Origin: Faecalibacterium prausnitzii
GTDB lineage: Bacteria > Bacillota > Clostridia > Oscillospirales > Ruminococcaceae
Assembly: GCF_019967995.1 (NCBI RefSeq)
Contig: NZ_CP065377.1
Span: 682,001 to 746,000 of the forward strand
DNA length: 64,000 nucleotides
Direction of reading: 5' to 3'
The position numbers and the translations under genes were made by a program. Positions 3,525-45,525 of the stretch are shown here, piece after piece (positions within the stretch are counted from its first letter, which is position 1; the number at the start of each line of letters is the position of its first letter). The notes under the pieces are model-generated. The model ran no database searches. It was not told the DNA's origin and saw nothing but the letters and a program-made list of their open reading frames with translations.

Positions 3525-4388
3525 TTAGCCCTTGCCGGCGCAGCCGAACAGCTCGATCTTCTCCTTGCACTTGTCGATGATGGCCTGAGCGCCGGGAGCC
3601 AGCAGCTTGCGGGGGTCGAAGCCCTTGCCCTGCTGATCCTTGCCAGCCTCGATGTACTTGCGGGTGGCCTCAGCAAAGACCAGCTGGCACTCGGTGTTGA
3701 TGTTGATCTTGGAGACGCCCAGGCTGATGGCCTTTGCGATCATCTCGTCGGGGATGCCGGTGCCGCCGTGCAGGACCAGGGGGATGTTGTTAGTGGCCTT
3801 GTGGATGCGGTCCAGAGCCTCGAAGTCCAGACCCTTCCAGTTGGCCGGGTAGACACCGTGGATGTTGCCGATGCCAGCTGCCAGGAAATCAATACCCAGA
3901 TCGGTGATCTTTGCGCACTCCGCAGGGTCTGCGATCTCGCCAGCGCCCACGACGCCGTCCTCGACGCCGCCGATGGAACCGACCTCAGCTTCGATGCTCA
4001 GGCCCTTGGAATGTGCCAGAGCGACCAGCTCCTTGGTCTTCTCCACGTTCTCCTCGATGGAGTAGTGGCTGCCGTCGAACATGATGGAAGAGAAACCGGC
4101 TTCCACGCAGGCCTTGCAGCCTTCGTAGGTGCCGTGGTCCAGATGCAGAGCAACGGGAACGGTGATCCCCATGGAATCGACCATTGCGCTGACCATCGCA
4201 GCAACGGTCTTGAAACCGGTCATGTACTTGCCGGCACCCTCGGAGACGCCCAGGATGACAGGGCTCTTCATCTCCTCGCAGGCGGTCAGCACAGCCTTGG
4301 TCCATTCCAGGTTGTTGATGTTGAACTGGGGCACACCGTAGTGGCCGTCGCGTGCCTTGATGAGCATTTCGGTTGCATTTACCAACAT
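3525..4388 (-). CDS. fba: Class II fructose-bisphosphate aldolase
   Basis: A 287-residue zinc-dependent aldolase that cleaves fructose 1,6-bisphosphate to dihydroxyacetone phosphate and glyceraldehyde 3-phosphate in glycolysis and runs in reverse in gluconeogenesis. The catalytic Asp84 with zinc ligand His85 lies in LHLDHG; further zinc ligands are His177 (IGNIHGVYP) and His207 (VLHGGTG). The phosphate-binding KININTE segment is at about 227. Length matches the short class IIA subgroup. ATG 4388 is preceded by GGAGGTAATGAATA. It is a single-gene transcription unit with its own strong promoter and terminator. Confidence 0.96.
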   Translation of the reverse strand: MLVNATEMLIKARDGHYGVPQFNINNLEWTKAVLTACEEMKSPVILGVSEGAGKYMTGFKTVAAMVSAMVDSMGITVPVALHLDHGTYEGCKACVEAGFSSIMFDGSHYSIEENVEKTKELVALAHSKGLSIEAEVGSIGGVEDGVVGAGEIADPAECAKITDLGIDFLAAGIGNIHGVYPANWKGLDFEALDRIHKATNNIPLVLHGGTGIPDEMIAKAISLGVSKININTECQLVFAEATRKYIEAGKDQQGKGFDPRKLLAPGAQAIIDKCKEKIELFGCAGKG

Positions 4389-44801: not shown

Positions 44802-44826
44802 AAAGAACTCCTGAAAAGTTGCGTTC

Positions 44827-44855
44827 TTGACAAATCGTAAGAAATTGACTATACT
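44827..44855 (+). promoter_or_regulatory. Plus-strand promoter facing the 48-codon peptide gene
   Basis: TTGACA (44827-44832), 17 bp, TATACT (44850-44855). It points away from the GNAT gene and towards the 3' end of the peptide gene; no plus-strand reading frame follows before the terminator. Confidence 0.75.
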
Positions 44856-44913
44856 ACAAATAGAAAAGGCGCTGTCTGCAAAGTGGTCAGCTCCTTTACC
44901 GGCAAGTGTTAAA
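44853..44913 (+). repeat. Inverted homologous 5' sequence, left copy
   Basis: From ACTACAAATAG through GCGCTGTCTGCA, TGGTC and CCGG to GTGTTAAA. The same words in the same order occur on the minus strand at 45238-45179. The two copies therefore form the 5' ends of the two converging transcripts. Confidence 0.75.
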
Positions 44914-44964
44914 AAGTAACGACCGCTCTAGTTGGGGAACTGTGAGGCGGTCGTTACTTTTTAT
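44862..44964 (+). ncRNA. Candidate antisense RNA (type I antitoxin-like)
   Basis: About 100 nt predicted between the near-consensus promoter at 44827-44855 and the T tract after the hairpin at 44911-44962. It has no start codon. Its 3' part is exactly antisense to the last codons and 3' end of the 48-codon peptide mRNA (overlap about 44908-44964). Its first 50 nt resemble the first 60 nt of that mRNA in the same sense. The convergent layout with a shared terminator resembles the Fst/par and txpA/RatA type I toxin-antitoxin loci; expression is unproven. Confidence 0.55.
44911..44962. terminator. Shared bidirectional terminator of the convergent small locus
   Basis: AAAAAGTAACGACCGC (44911-44926) and GCGGTCGTTACTTTTT (44947-44962) form a perfect 16-bp stem whose A and T ends give a T tract on both strands. 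The peptide stop codon lies inside the right arm. Confidence 0.9.
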
Positions 44965-45100
44965 TGCGTTTGGAATAGTGCTTGGCCTTGGGCTTGTCCC
45001 GAAAGACATCCTTTGAGATCATCCAGGTTACCTGCGTAACGCCGATGACAACGTCTGCAATCAAATGCAGTATGTTCACAACAGTATTCAAAACATCCAT
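44954..45100 (-). CDS. 48-residue hydrophobic peptide, candidate type I toxin
   Basis: A 48-residue peptide with a hydrophobic helix (about 3-29, VLNTVVNILHLIADVVIGV and onward) and a very basic tail (RDKPKAKHYSKRNKK). This shape, one membrane helix plus charged C-terminus, is shared by Fst, TxpA and BsrG-like toxins, though I see no direct sequence match. GGAGGAG lies 6 bp before ATG 45100. The mRNA starts near 45242 with a 140-nt leader that contains a 5' hairpin and a second GGAGGAGG buried in a CCGGAG/CTCCGG stem. A convergent antisense promoter lies downstream. Toxicity is inferred. Confidence 0.6.
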   Translation of the reverse strand: MDVLNTVVNILHLIADVVIGVTQVTWMISKDVFRDKPKAKHYSKRNKK

Positions 45101-45178
45101 GTTGGACTCCTCCGTTCAGGTTGGGTGTGGTTGACATGCAAACATCCCGGAGAAGATAAAAAGCAGACCTCCTCCGGA

Positions 45179-45238
45179 TTTGACACCGGAAAGAAGCCCG
45201 ACCACCTGCAATGCAGACAGCGCACCACTATTTCTAGT
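45179..45238 (-). repeat. Inverted homologous 5' sequence, right copy
   Basis: On the minus strand ACTAGAAATAG, GCGCTGTCTGCA, TGGTC, CTTTCCGG and GTGTCAAA in that order, matching the left copy at 44853-44913 at most positions with short indels. Its first bases form the palindrome CCACTA-TTTC-TAGTGG (45225-45240). Confidence 0.75.
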
Positions 45239-45248
45239 GGATGGTATC

Positions 45249-45277
45249 ATTATAACACGGATTTCGACGCTTTTCAA
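45249..45277 (-). promoter_or_regulatory. Promoter of the 48-codon peptide gene
   Basis: On the minus strand TTGAAA (45277-45272), 17 bp, TATAAT (45254-45249). Confidence 0.8.
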
Positions 45278-45338
45278 CGAGCGCGGCGCTCCGGCGGCGC
45301 GGCACAAAAAGAGGAAACGAAAAACTTTTCAAAAACCC

Positions 45339-45453
45339 TTGACACCTCTCCGAAGCTATGGTAAGATAATGCCACGTTAGAAATAACTAACCACAAGGCG
45401 GTCCGCAACAGGAACCGCGTTCTTTTTGAACTTGAGGTTAGATGAATCTAACC
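45339..45453 (+). promoter_or_regulatory. DUF3793 promoter with two GTTAG-N6-CTAAC operators
   Basis: TTGACA (45339-45344), 17 bp, TAAGAT (45362-45367). Two inverted repeats with equal 6-bp spacers follow: GTTAG-AAATAA-CTAAC (45376-45391, at the expected transcription start) and GGTTAG-ATGAAT-CTAACC (45436-45453). GTTAG/CTAAC half-sites are those of DtxR/IdeR-type iron regulators, although their classical spacing is shorter. A DtxR-family gene lies at 49657-50058. Confidence 0.65.
45398..45427 (+). terminator. Terminator-like hairpin inside the DUF3793 leader
   Basis: GCGGTCC and GGAACCGC (one bulged A) around GCAACA, then GTTCTTTTT. It stands between the promoter and the gene, after the first operator and before the second, so it could attenuate transcription or release a short leader RNA of about 55 nt. 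Confidence 0.6.
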
Positions 45454-45525
45454 ATGAAGCTCTGCATAGTCTGGATGCACAGCGGGAATGCTTTTCTTAA
45501 ACCAAGCAACGGAGGAAAACCGGCC

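Follow-up and report, generated by a model that had tools for sequence, protein, structure and literature searches.

A putative type I-like toxin-antitoxin unit of Faecalibacterium prausnitzii and its covarying family of candidate antitoxin RNAs

Introduction

Most type I toxin-antitoxin systems of Gram-positive bacteria overlap at their 3' ends, according to the accessible part of PMC8167048, where the TxpA/RatA duplex is described as being cut by RNase III and SprG1/SprF1 is called a homologue of that pair. The par/Fst system combines convergent promoters, a bidirectional terminator, a U-turn, the direct repeats DRa and DRb, and a sequestered Shine-Dalgarno (SD) sequence; a conserved tryptophan between the helix and the tail is a signature of the Fst/Ldr peptides, and the U-turn is absent from the toxin terminator loop of some Fst homologues (PMC7472228, sections available). 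The CD-RCd systems of C. difficile consist of overlapping convergent genes for hydrophobic peptides of 34-59 aa with a charged tail and are mostly located in prophages (PMC6563280 and PMC7699646, accessible parts). The first three of the C. difficile systems to be described are convergent and encode toxins of 50-53 aa (PMC6563280, accessible part).

Here we describe a compact locus in a 64-kb stretch of Faecalibacterium prausnitzii DNA (the window, meaning the whole of the stretch analyzed), which by its sequence possesses the general features of type I systems: a candidate RNA antitoxin that lies opposite to and overlaps the toxin gene, and a small hydrophobic peptide with a charged tail and an SD sequence. 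The parts of the locus, their conservation, the covariation of the RNA and a hairpin shared by both transcripts were observed directly, and on this basis the locus is very probably a chromosomal type I-like toxin-antitoxin unit. While the principle of convergent RNAs with a common terminator is known, the new elements are a widespread RNA family that has no Rfam match where tested, and a twin 5' hairpin in place of direct repeats. The initial annotation had called the locus undescribed, which holds for Rfam 15, where no family reached the gathering score over the antitoxin RNA in the window or in 40 further loci, and for the matches in the open-licence PMC literature, often for their top-ranked part only; among these matches, of which the top-ranked part was covered in several cases, none reported a type I system in Faecalibacterium in its title or the start of its abstract. 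If our reading is true, a dominant gut commensal would be seen to carry, together with bacteria related to it, a widespread and unannotated class of self-toxin units, and the RNA model finds the units without relying on tiny, fast-changing peptides.

Organization of the unit and comparison with described systems

The unit consists of the following parts, with positions numbered from the first letter of the window; R1 and R2 are the covariance models introduced in the next section.

44827..44855, plus strand: antitoxin promoter, TTGACA-17-TATACT (11/12 match)
44862..44963, plus strand: predicted antitoxin RNA of ~100 nt, with the start placed from the promoter (evidence: R1/R2, fold, covariation)
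44865..44897, plus strand: 5' hairpin of the antitoxin RNA (fold; helices 1-3 in the covariation analysis)
44869..44880, plus strand: antitoxin copy of the 12-nt core of the shared 5' element (matched exactly by an inverted repeat at 45212-45223)
44910..44963, both strands: bidirectional terminator (fold and repeat search), with UUGG, a YUNR U-turn motif, in the antitoxin loop
44954..45100, minus strand: putative toxin peptide of 48 aa (ORF; start codon at 45098-45100)
45101..45242, minus strand: toxin leader of ~140 nt, with the start placed from the promoter
45107..45113, minus strand: Shine-Dalgarno sequence GGAGGAG (sequence)
45148..45155, minus strand: leader segment CUUCUCCG, predicted partner of the SD sequence (minimum-energy fold of the whole mRNA)
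45212..45223, minus strand: toxin-mRNA copy of the 12-nt core, in the same RNA sense (inverted repeat and leader alignment)
45249..45277, minus strand: toxin promoter, TTGAAA-17-TATAAT, with TG before the -10 element (11/12 match)

The two facing near-consensus promoters that had been noticed initially both match the consensus at 11 of 12 positions, and the hydrophobic and basic peptide of 48 residues behind GGAGGAG was likewise recovered as a minus-strand ORF. In the 3 kb around the unit there are six promoter-like sites of at least 9/12, compared with 1.6 +/- 1.2 in shuffles. The bidirectional stem is perfect and holds the stop codon of the peptide, as had been proposed, although its arms are 17 nt long (44910-44926 and 44947-44963, with a 20-nt loop) and not 16 bp as given before. 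The claim that the plus transcript has no start codon is true of ATG, which is absent from the RNA at 44862-44963, but not of GTG, codons of which are present and one of which opens a reading frame that extends beyond the terminator. The plus RNA folds far better than its shuffles (z-score -5.22), and the fold z-score of the minus RNA is -3.74.

The unit resembles par/Fst (pAD1 RNA I / RNA II), as far as that system is described in the available sections of PMC7472228, in its convergent promoters and single bidirectional terminator, in a U-turn motif in a terminator loop, in an SD sequence that is predicted to be sequestered in the leader, and in a small hydrophobic peptide with a charged tail and an invariant tryptophan (Trp26) between helix and tail. 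It differs in the absence of the DNA direct repeats DRa/DRb, instead of which an inverted repeat gives both RNAs the same 5' hairpin, and in the family-wide enrichment of the U-turn in the antitoxin loop, not in the toxin loop. The window peptide differs from the Fst peptides as well, as it has no PXXXG motif (there is no proline in the helix) and no Pfam match, and tryptophan is present in only 17 of the 46 peptides that face the antitoxin RNA.

With TxpA/RatA and SprG/SprF (PepG1) the unit shares the convergent arrangement with a 3' overlap (PMC8167048, accessible part). Among the peptides that face matches of the same RNA model, some score above the cut-off of the Hol_Tox family, whereas the likeness to PepG1 stays below its cut-off. 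Differences from these systems are that the window peptide itself matches neither Hol_Tox nor PepG1, that the predicted RNA is only ~100 nt long, and that Rfam 15 has no match. The likeness to CD-RCd, which we compared by description only and from the accessible parts of the sources, lies in the overlapping convergent toxin and antitoxin genes and in the small hydrophobic peptide with a charged tail; R2 has no match in 50 kb of phage phiCD27, which is not itself a confirmed CD-RCd carrier.

The family of candidate antitoxin RNAs

We built the covariance model R1 from 11 plus-strand RNAs of the genus, leaving the promoters out of the alignment, and retrained it as model R2. The genome counts obtained with both models are lower bounds, because scoring was confined to a portion of the first-look candidates (130 per genome in the R1 genus search; 13-16, under stricter filters, in the wider searches). 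R1 finds matches in at least 22 of the 31 Faecalibacterium genomes and, across the family, in at least 61 of 247; the matches in the genus sum to 142, including some opposite-strand matches over one terminator, and six of them are in the window's own genome. On the other hand, as the E-values were calculated per genome, a handful of the 247 genomes would be expected to match by chance at E 0.01. R2 matches at least 86 of 245 genomes of the order, 78 of 291 of the class and 25 of 299 of the phylum, and because of this distribution the family looks centred on Clostridia. In the window and 50 kb from a C. difficile phage, 114 kb in total, R2 matches the window locus only, where its weaker match is the opposite strand of the same terminator.

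A set of 96 R1 matches, some of them near-identical, was examined individually: 58 were fetched automatically from the genus and the family, and 38 were chosen as strong, tandem or own-genome matches; the loci of this set contain additional matches beyond the 96. An upstream promoter of at least 10/12 is present within 60 bases in 88 of the 96, compared with 56 of 2910 random windows from the same loci, and an exact TTGACA is present upstream in 80; the other eight matches have no promoter of 10/12. Since the model was built without the promoters, they provide an independent check of its matches. A small hydrophobic ORF that has an SD sequence and ends at the terminator faces 72 of the 96 matches. 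By these first criteria an ORF is absent from the remaining 24, yet 18 of these still have a promoter of at least 10/12, and an ORF or a remnant was found under looser rules in several of them (e.g. L069, L076, L096, L025 and L043). Toxin promoters are weak in many of the relatives, with a match of at most 9/12 in 40 of 63 units (identical units, units with element scores below 26 and those with too short leaders were dropped from this count).

At L044/L094, L027, L037, L038 and L049 there are antitoxin RNAs with promoters of at least 11/12 and no recognizable partner peptide; they are possibly orphans whose targets are units at other places in the genome. Units arranged in tandem or in clusters were observed at L083 (G244:C6), L084 (G252:C35), L085 (G186:C22) and L086 (G253:C7), where the copies are mostly ~310-380 bases apart and encode near-identical or similar peptides.

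By analyzing 94 distinct sequences, we found that 94.1% of cells are paired and that two-sided changes occur in 17 of the 20 pairs, compared with 27-58% of cells paired in slid controls; the alignment was fitted to the model and favours structure, and the contrast with the slid controls is nonetheless large. Helices 1-3 of the 5' hairpin are paired in 86-97% of cells, with two-sided changes in seven of nine pairs, and this hairpin, which lies outside the terminator, supplies 7 of the 17 two-sided pairs. By these substitutions, the predicted antitoxin RNAs form a separate, covarying family. The YUNR motif is found in the antitoxin terminator loop of 89 of the 94 distinct sequences (shuffles: mean 63.1, maximum 74). 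In the toxin terminator loop it occurs in 62 of 94, which is not above shuffles (mean 56.2, maximum 68).

The order and class searches with R2 contributed 25 newly fetched loci, two of which had already been examined. One of the 23 that were left, L143, belongs to the same family. A promoter of at least 10/12 is present in 19 of the 23 and an ORF in 18, that of L148 being not credible; the shared 5' element beats every shuffle in 13 of the 18 loci with an ORF. Three loci from the phylum search were also inspected. A 12/12 promoter is present in two of them, and L153 alone encodes a convincing peptide.

The shared 5' hairpin

A repeat search of 44820-45290 (seed 7, minimum 10) returned two inverted repeats only, namely the terminator and the exact 12-nt pair 44869-44880/45212-45223, which is located near both predicted RNA 5' ends; direct repeats of at least 10 nt (seed 7) are absent from the same interval. 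Because an inverted repeat near both RNA starts places the same letters on both transcripts, the toxin leader and the antitoxin RNA begin alike, in the same sense.

The first 45 nt of the antitoxin aligned to the toxin leader beat all 50 shuffles in 58 of 69 distinct pairs. In a comparison of own with cross leaders, using fixed 180-nt leaders and no score filter, the alignment score is 33.8 for the own leader and 19.6 for the others (n=41, p 0.0002), and the own leader is ranked first in 20 of 41 cases. For 19 Faecalibacterium units the corresponding scores are 40.5 and 23.3, with the own leader first in 12, and after stricter redundancy removal it is ranked first by all eight remaining Faecalibacterium antitoxins. 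The likeness to the own leader thus exceeds that to others, so within each unit the two copies evolve jointly; selection, gene conversion or both could be responsible, and the data favour none of these.

Predicted RNA pairing and proposed mechanism

Pairing in trans was analyzed in 64 of the 72 units, after identical units and those with element scores below 26 had been dropped. Outside the terminator, the first 48 nt of the antitoxin do not pair with the toxin mRNA more strongly than shuffles do (mean z -0.41, n=64); the best predicted trans site of the antitoxin 5' part covers the SD sequence in 37 of 64 units. Compared with shuffled arms, the antitoxin's pyrimidine arm is a better fit to the SD region (mean z -1.79, with 26 of 36 below -1). 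Own pairs of this arm and the SD region outperform cross pairs overall (p 0.003), an advantage that loses significance when Faecalibacterium (p 0.13) and the other units (p 0.08) are taken separately. We therefore rejected a simple masking of the SD by the antitoxin 5' part, since the whole part is not above shuffles and the result for the SD arm alone is mixed.

Predicted cis pairing of the SD sequence has a mean probability of 0.83 over the 64 units. In the window mRNA its partner is CUUCUCCG (45148-45155) in the minimum-energy fold of the whole mRNA; in a shorter fold of the window the mean probability of SD pairing is 0.53, and the commonest partner is located elsewhere than 45148-45155. 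The best-supported pairing scheme in these predictions is a contact between the terminator loops together with an SD sequence that is partly hidden in cis.

In the mechanism that we propose, the minus strand would be transcribed into a ~330-nt mRNA for the membrane peptide of 48 aa, the long leader of which would fold and thereby hide the ribosome site at least in part, and the plus strand would yield, from its consensus promoter, the ~100-nt RNA. The 3' ends of the toxin and antitoxin RNAs would be complementary because both would end at one bidirectional terminator. First contact would probably be made between the terminator loops, with the U-turn motif in the antitoxin loop, and would then spread into a duplex that either blocks the toxin mRNA or sends it to RNase III. 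Transcription, toxicity, pairing and degradation are steps that we infer from sequence. The same 5' hairpin on both RNAs may allow docking by an exchange of stem arms, or may give both a shared 5' stability or a common binding partner.

The second of these possibilities implies that the twin hairpin is unrelated to pairing and acts as a 5' stabilizer or as a common RNase or protein site, with either selection or gene conversion across the inverted repeats keeping its copies alike. Such a role, which we consider to have a little under an even chance, is compatible with the toxin-antitoxin unit as a whole. It agrees with the shuffle-like level of trans pairing outside the terminator and with the small gain upon cofolding of the two 5' elements (mean -3.1 kcal/mol, below -3 in 17 of 34). 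The identity of the two copies is 0.91 at paired and 0.87 at unpaired positions (34 units), and this similarity gives no strong vote for arm exchange. A stabilizing 5' helix on the par toxin mRNA is described in the available part of PMC7472228. Docking, however, also predicts the within-unit likeness of the copies, and gene conversion alone does not explain the compensatory changes in the hairpin.

A broader view would combine these elements into a Clostridia-wide family of RNA antitoxins that carry a same-sense copy of the 5' hairpin of their target, recognize it by exchanging arms between the twin hairpins, keep the copies co-evolving within each unit, and provide one RNA chassis for many different small membrane toxins. 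We put this composite forward as a speculation that is rather unlikely to be right in full. The puzzle that it addresses is why the antitoxin RNA copies the 5' hairpin of its target instead of complementing it.

The peptide and its relatives

A homology search with the 48-residue peptide, which the initial annotation had recommended, did reveal relatives. The peptide matches 48 database proteins, possibly including the window's own, and no names or Pfam domains appear among these matches as listed. At E 0.05, matches are located at 11 places in 7 of the 31 genus genomes, including the window's own. At the level of the family, one weak match to the peptide (L010) was obtained. An alignment of 32 peptide sequences has seven invariant residues: Met1, Leu4, Asn5, Val7, Leu11, Leu13 and Trp26. 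At all ten other peptide loci in the genus, TTGACA is kept exactly, together with TATAAT or TATACT, and a stem resembling a terminator is present; the antisense promoter, the loss of which from relatives that keep the peptide gene had been named as evidence against the pair, is therefore retained at each of them. Losses were observed on the other side. In alignments read by eye, the toxin promoter and leader of L005 are unrecognizable and its start is altered, and the first part of the peptide is missing from L008, while the antitoxin promoter and RNA are kept at both loci. This asymmetry, with the toxin side lost and the antitoxin side kept, is expected of a toxin-antitoxin unit.

A scan of the genome contigs with the single peptide gave no match, and a scan with the peptide alignment gave one locus (L012), taken as the same place as L005; the alignment had no match in the viral contigs. 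The only match in the phage collection is at positions 3858-3998 of MT839435.1 (L154), an unannotated 4.3-kb faecal metagenomic 'bacteriophage' scaffold, which encodes a peptide 66% identical to that of the window.

The window peptide has no match to toxin families, including the TxpA, Hol_Tox (PF16935) and PepG1 models, and none in Pfam, PADLOC or PHROGs; its only match in NCBIfam is unrelated and far below the cut-off. For comparison, 46 partner peptides were hand-picked from units that face the same RNA, avoiding near-duplicates. Hol_Tox is matched with an E-value of at most 0.1 by seven of the 46, the best value being 2.7e-9. When ten partner peptides were rescanned with scores, five of them, all among these seven, matched this family and three of the five passed the curated cut-off (37.1, 24.9 and 24.2 versus 23.3 bits). 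Likeness to PepG1 was found in three of the 46, with a best score of 29.1 against a curated cut-off of 70 bits that none passes, and is a hint only because it lies below this cut-off; two peptides show likeness to the competence inhibitor ComI (best 25.9 versus 55 bits). With the opposing promoter kept, the RNA covarying and a small number of partner peptides passing the Hol_Tox cut-off, the type I-like interpretation given initially gains support at the level of sequence comparison.

The C-terminal ends of the peptides are basic, with at least two K or R among the last four residues in 45 of the 46 peptides facing the antitoxin RNA. Within 44954-44963, the last codons of the window peptide, AAA AAG, fall in the A tract that corresponds to the U tract of the antitoxin terminator, and identical bases thus specify the final lysines and this U tract.

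Variation at the genomic site

The window genome is a single contig of 2.94 Mb, in which the unit is flanked by genes for a GNAT acetyltransferase and for a DUF3793 protein. The DUF3793 gene is present in 27 of the 31 genus genomes. Using the antitoxin model to scan these DUF3793 loci, taken with 1.5 kb on each side and some of them shortened by contig ends, we identified a unit in 2 of 27, the window itself and L100 from genome G003. The unit of L100 lies between the GNAT gene and the gene that follows it and encodes a different peptide of 45 aa; no unit was found in the GNAT-DUF3793 gap of this locus. The presence of the unit at the site therefore varies between genomes.

These observations bear on whether the peptide is a toxin. 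The plus RNA could instead be a regulatory antisense RNA for a non-toxic small membrane peptide, for example a membrane-protein regulator, with no toxin-antitoxin pair involved. Such a role, which we regard as improbable, is in line with the absence of any toxin-family match of the window peptide. However, the units occur in multiple copies and in tandem, some have lost the peptide side but kept the RNA, their presence at the same site differs among relatives, and a few partner peptides score above the Hol_Tox cut-off; all of this fits a toxin-antitoxin unit better.

That the unit is more than a chance assembly follows mainly from its conservation among relatives. A simple terminator scan gives five sites versus 4.1 expected by chance, and the bidirectional terminator is not among them because the scan accepts loops of 3-8 only. 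A strong bidirectional terminator between converging transcripts, with chance promoters and no functional RNA, would suit this shuffle-like frequency of simple hairpins, but it is very improbable given that the promoters upstream of model matches are far above background, that the covarying 5' hairpin lies outside the terminator, and that R2 matches only this locus in the window and the 50-kb control phage.

The site that the toxin-antitoxin unit occupies in the window is used by another insert in a different Faecalibacterium genome. There (L102, 2357-2797, minus strand), between the DUF3793 and GNAT genes, the insert at the same chromosomal site carries a HicB-like antitoxin (PF15919, 37.8 versus 27 bits).

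Next to the unit, at 45339-45460 of the window and also in L099-L104, a promoter-like site is followed by the conserved motifs TTAGAxATxACTAAC and GGTTAG...CTAAC, as aligned by eye. These motifs are upstream of the DUF3793 gene, which itself precedes a feoA-like gene, and the segment looks like a regulated leader of the DUF3793/feoA-like gene cluster.
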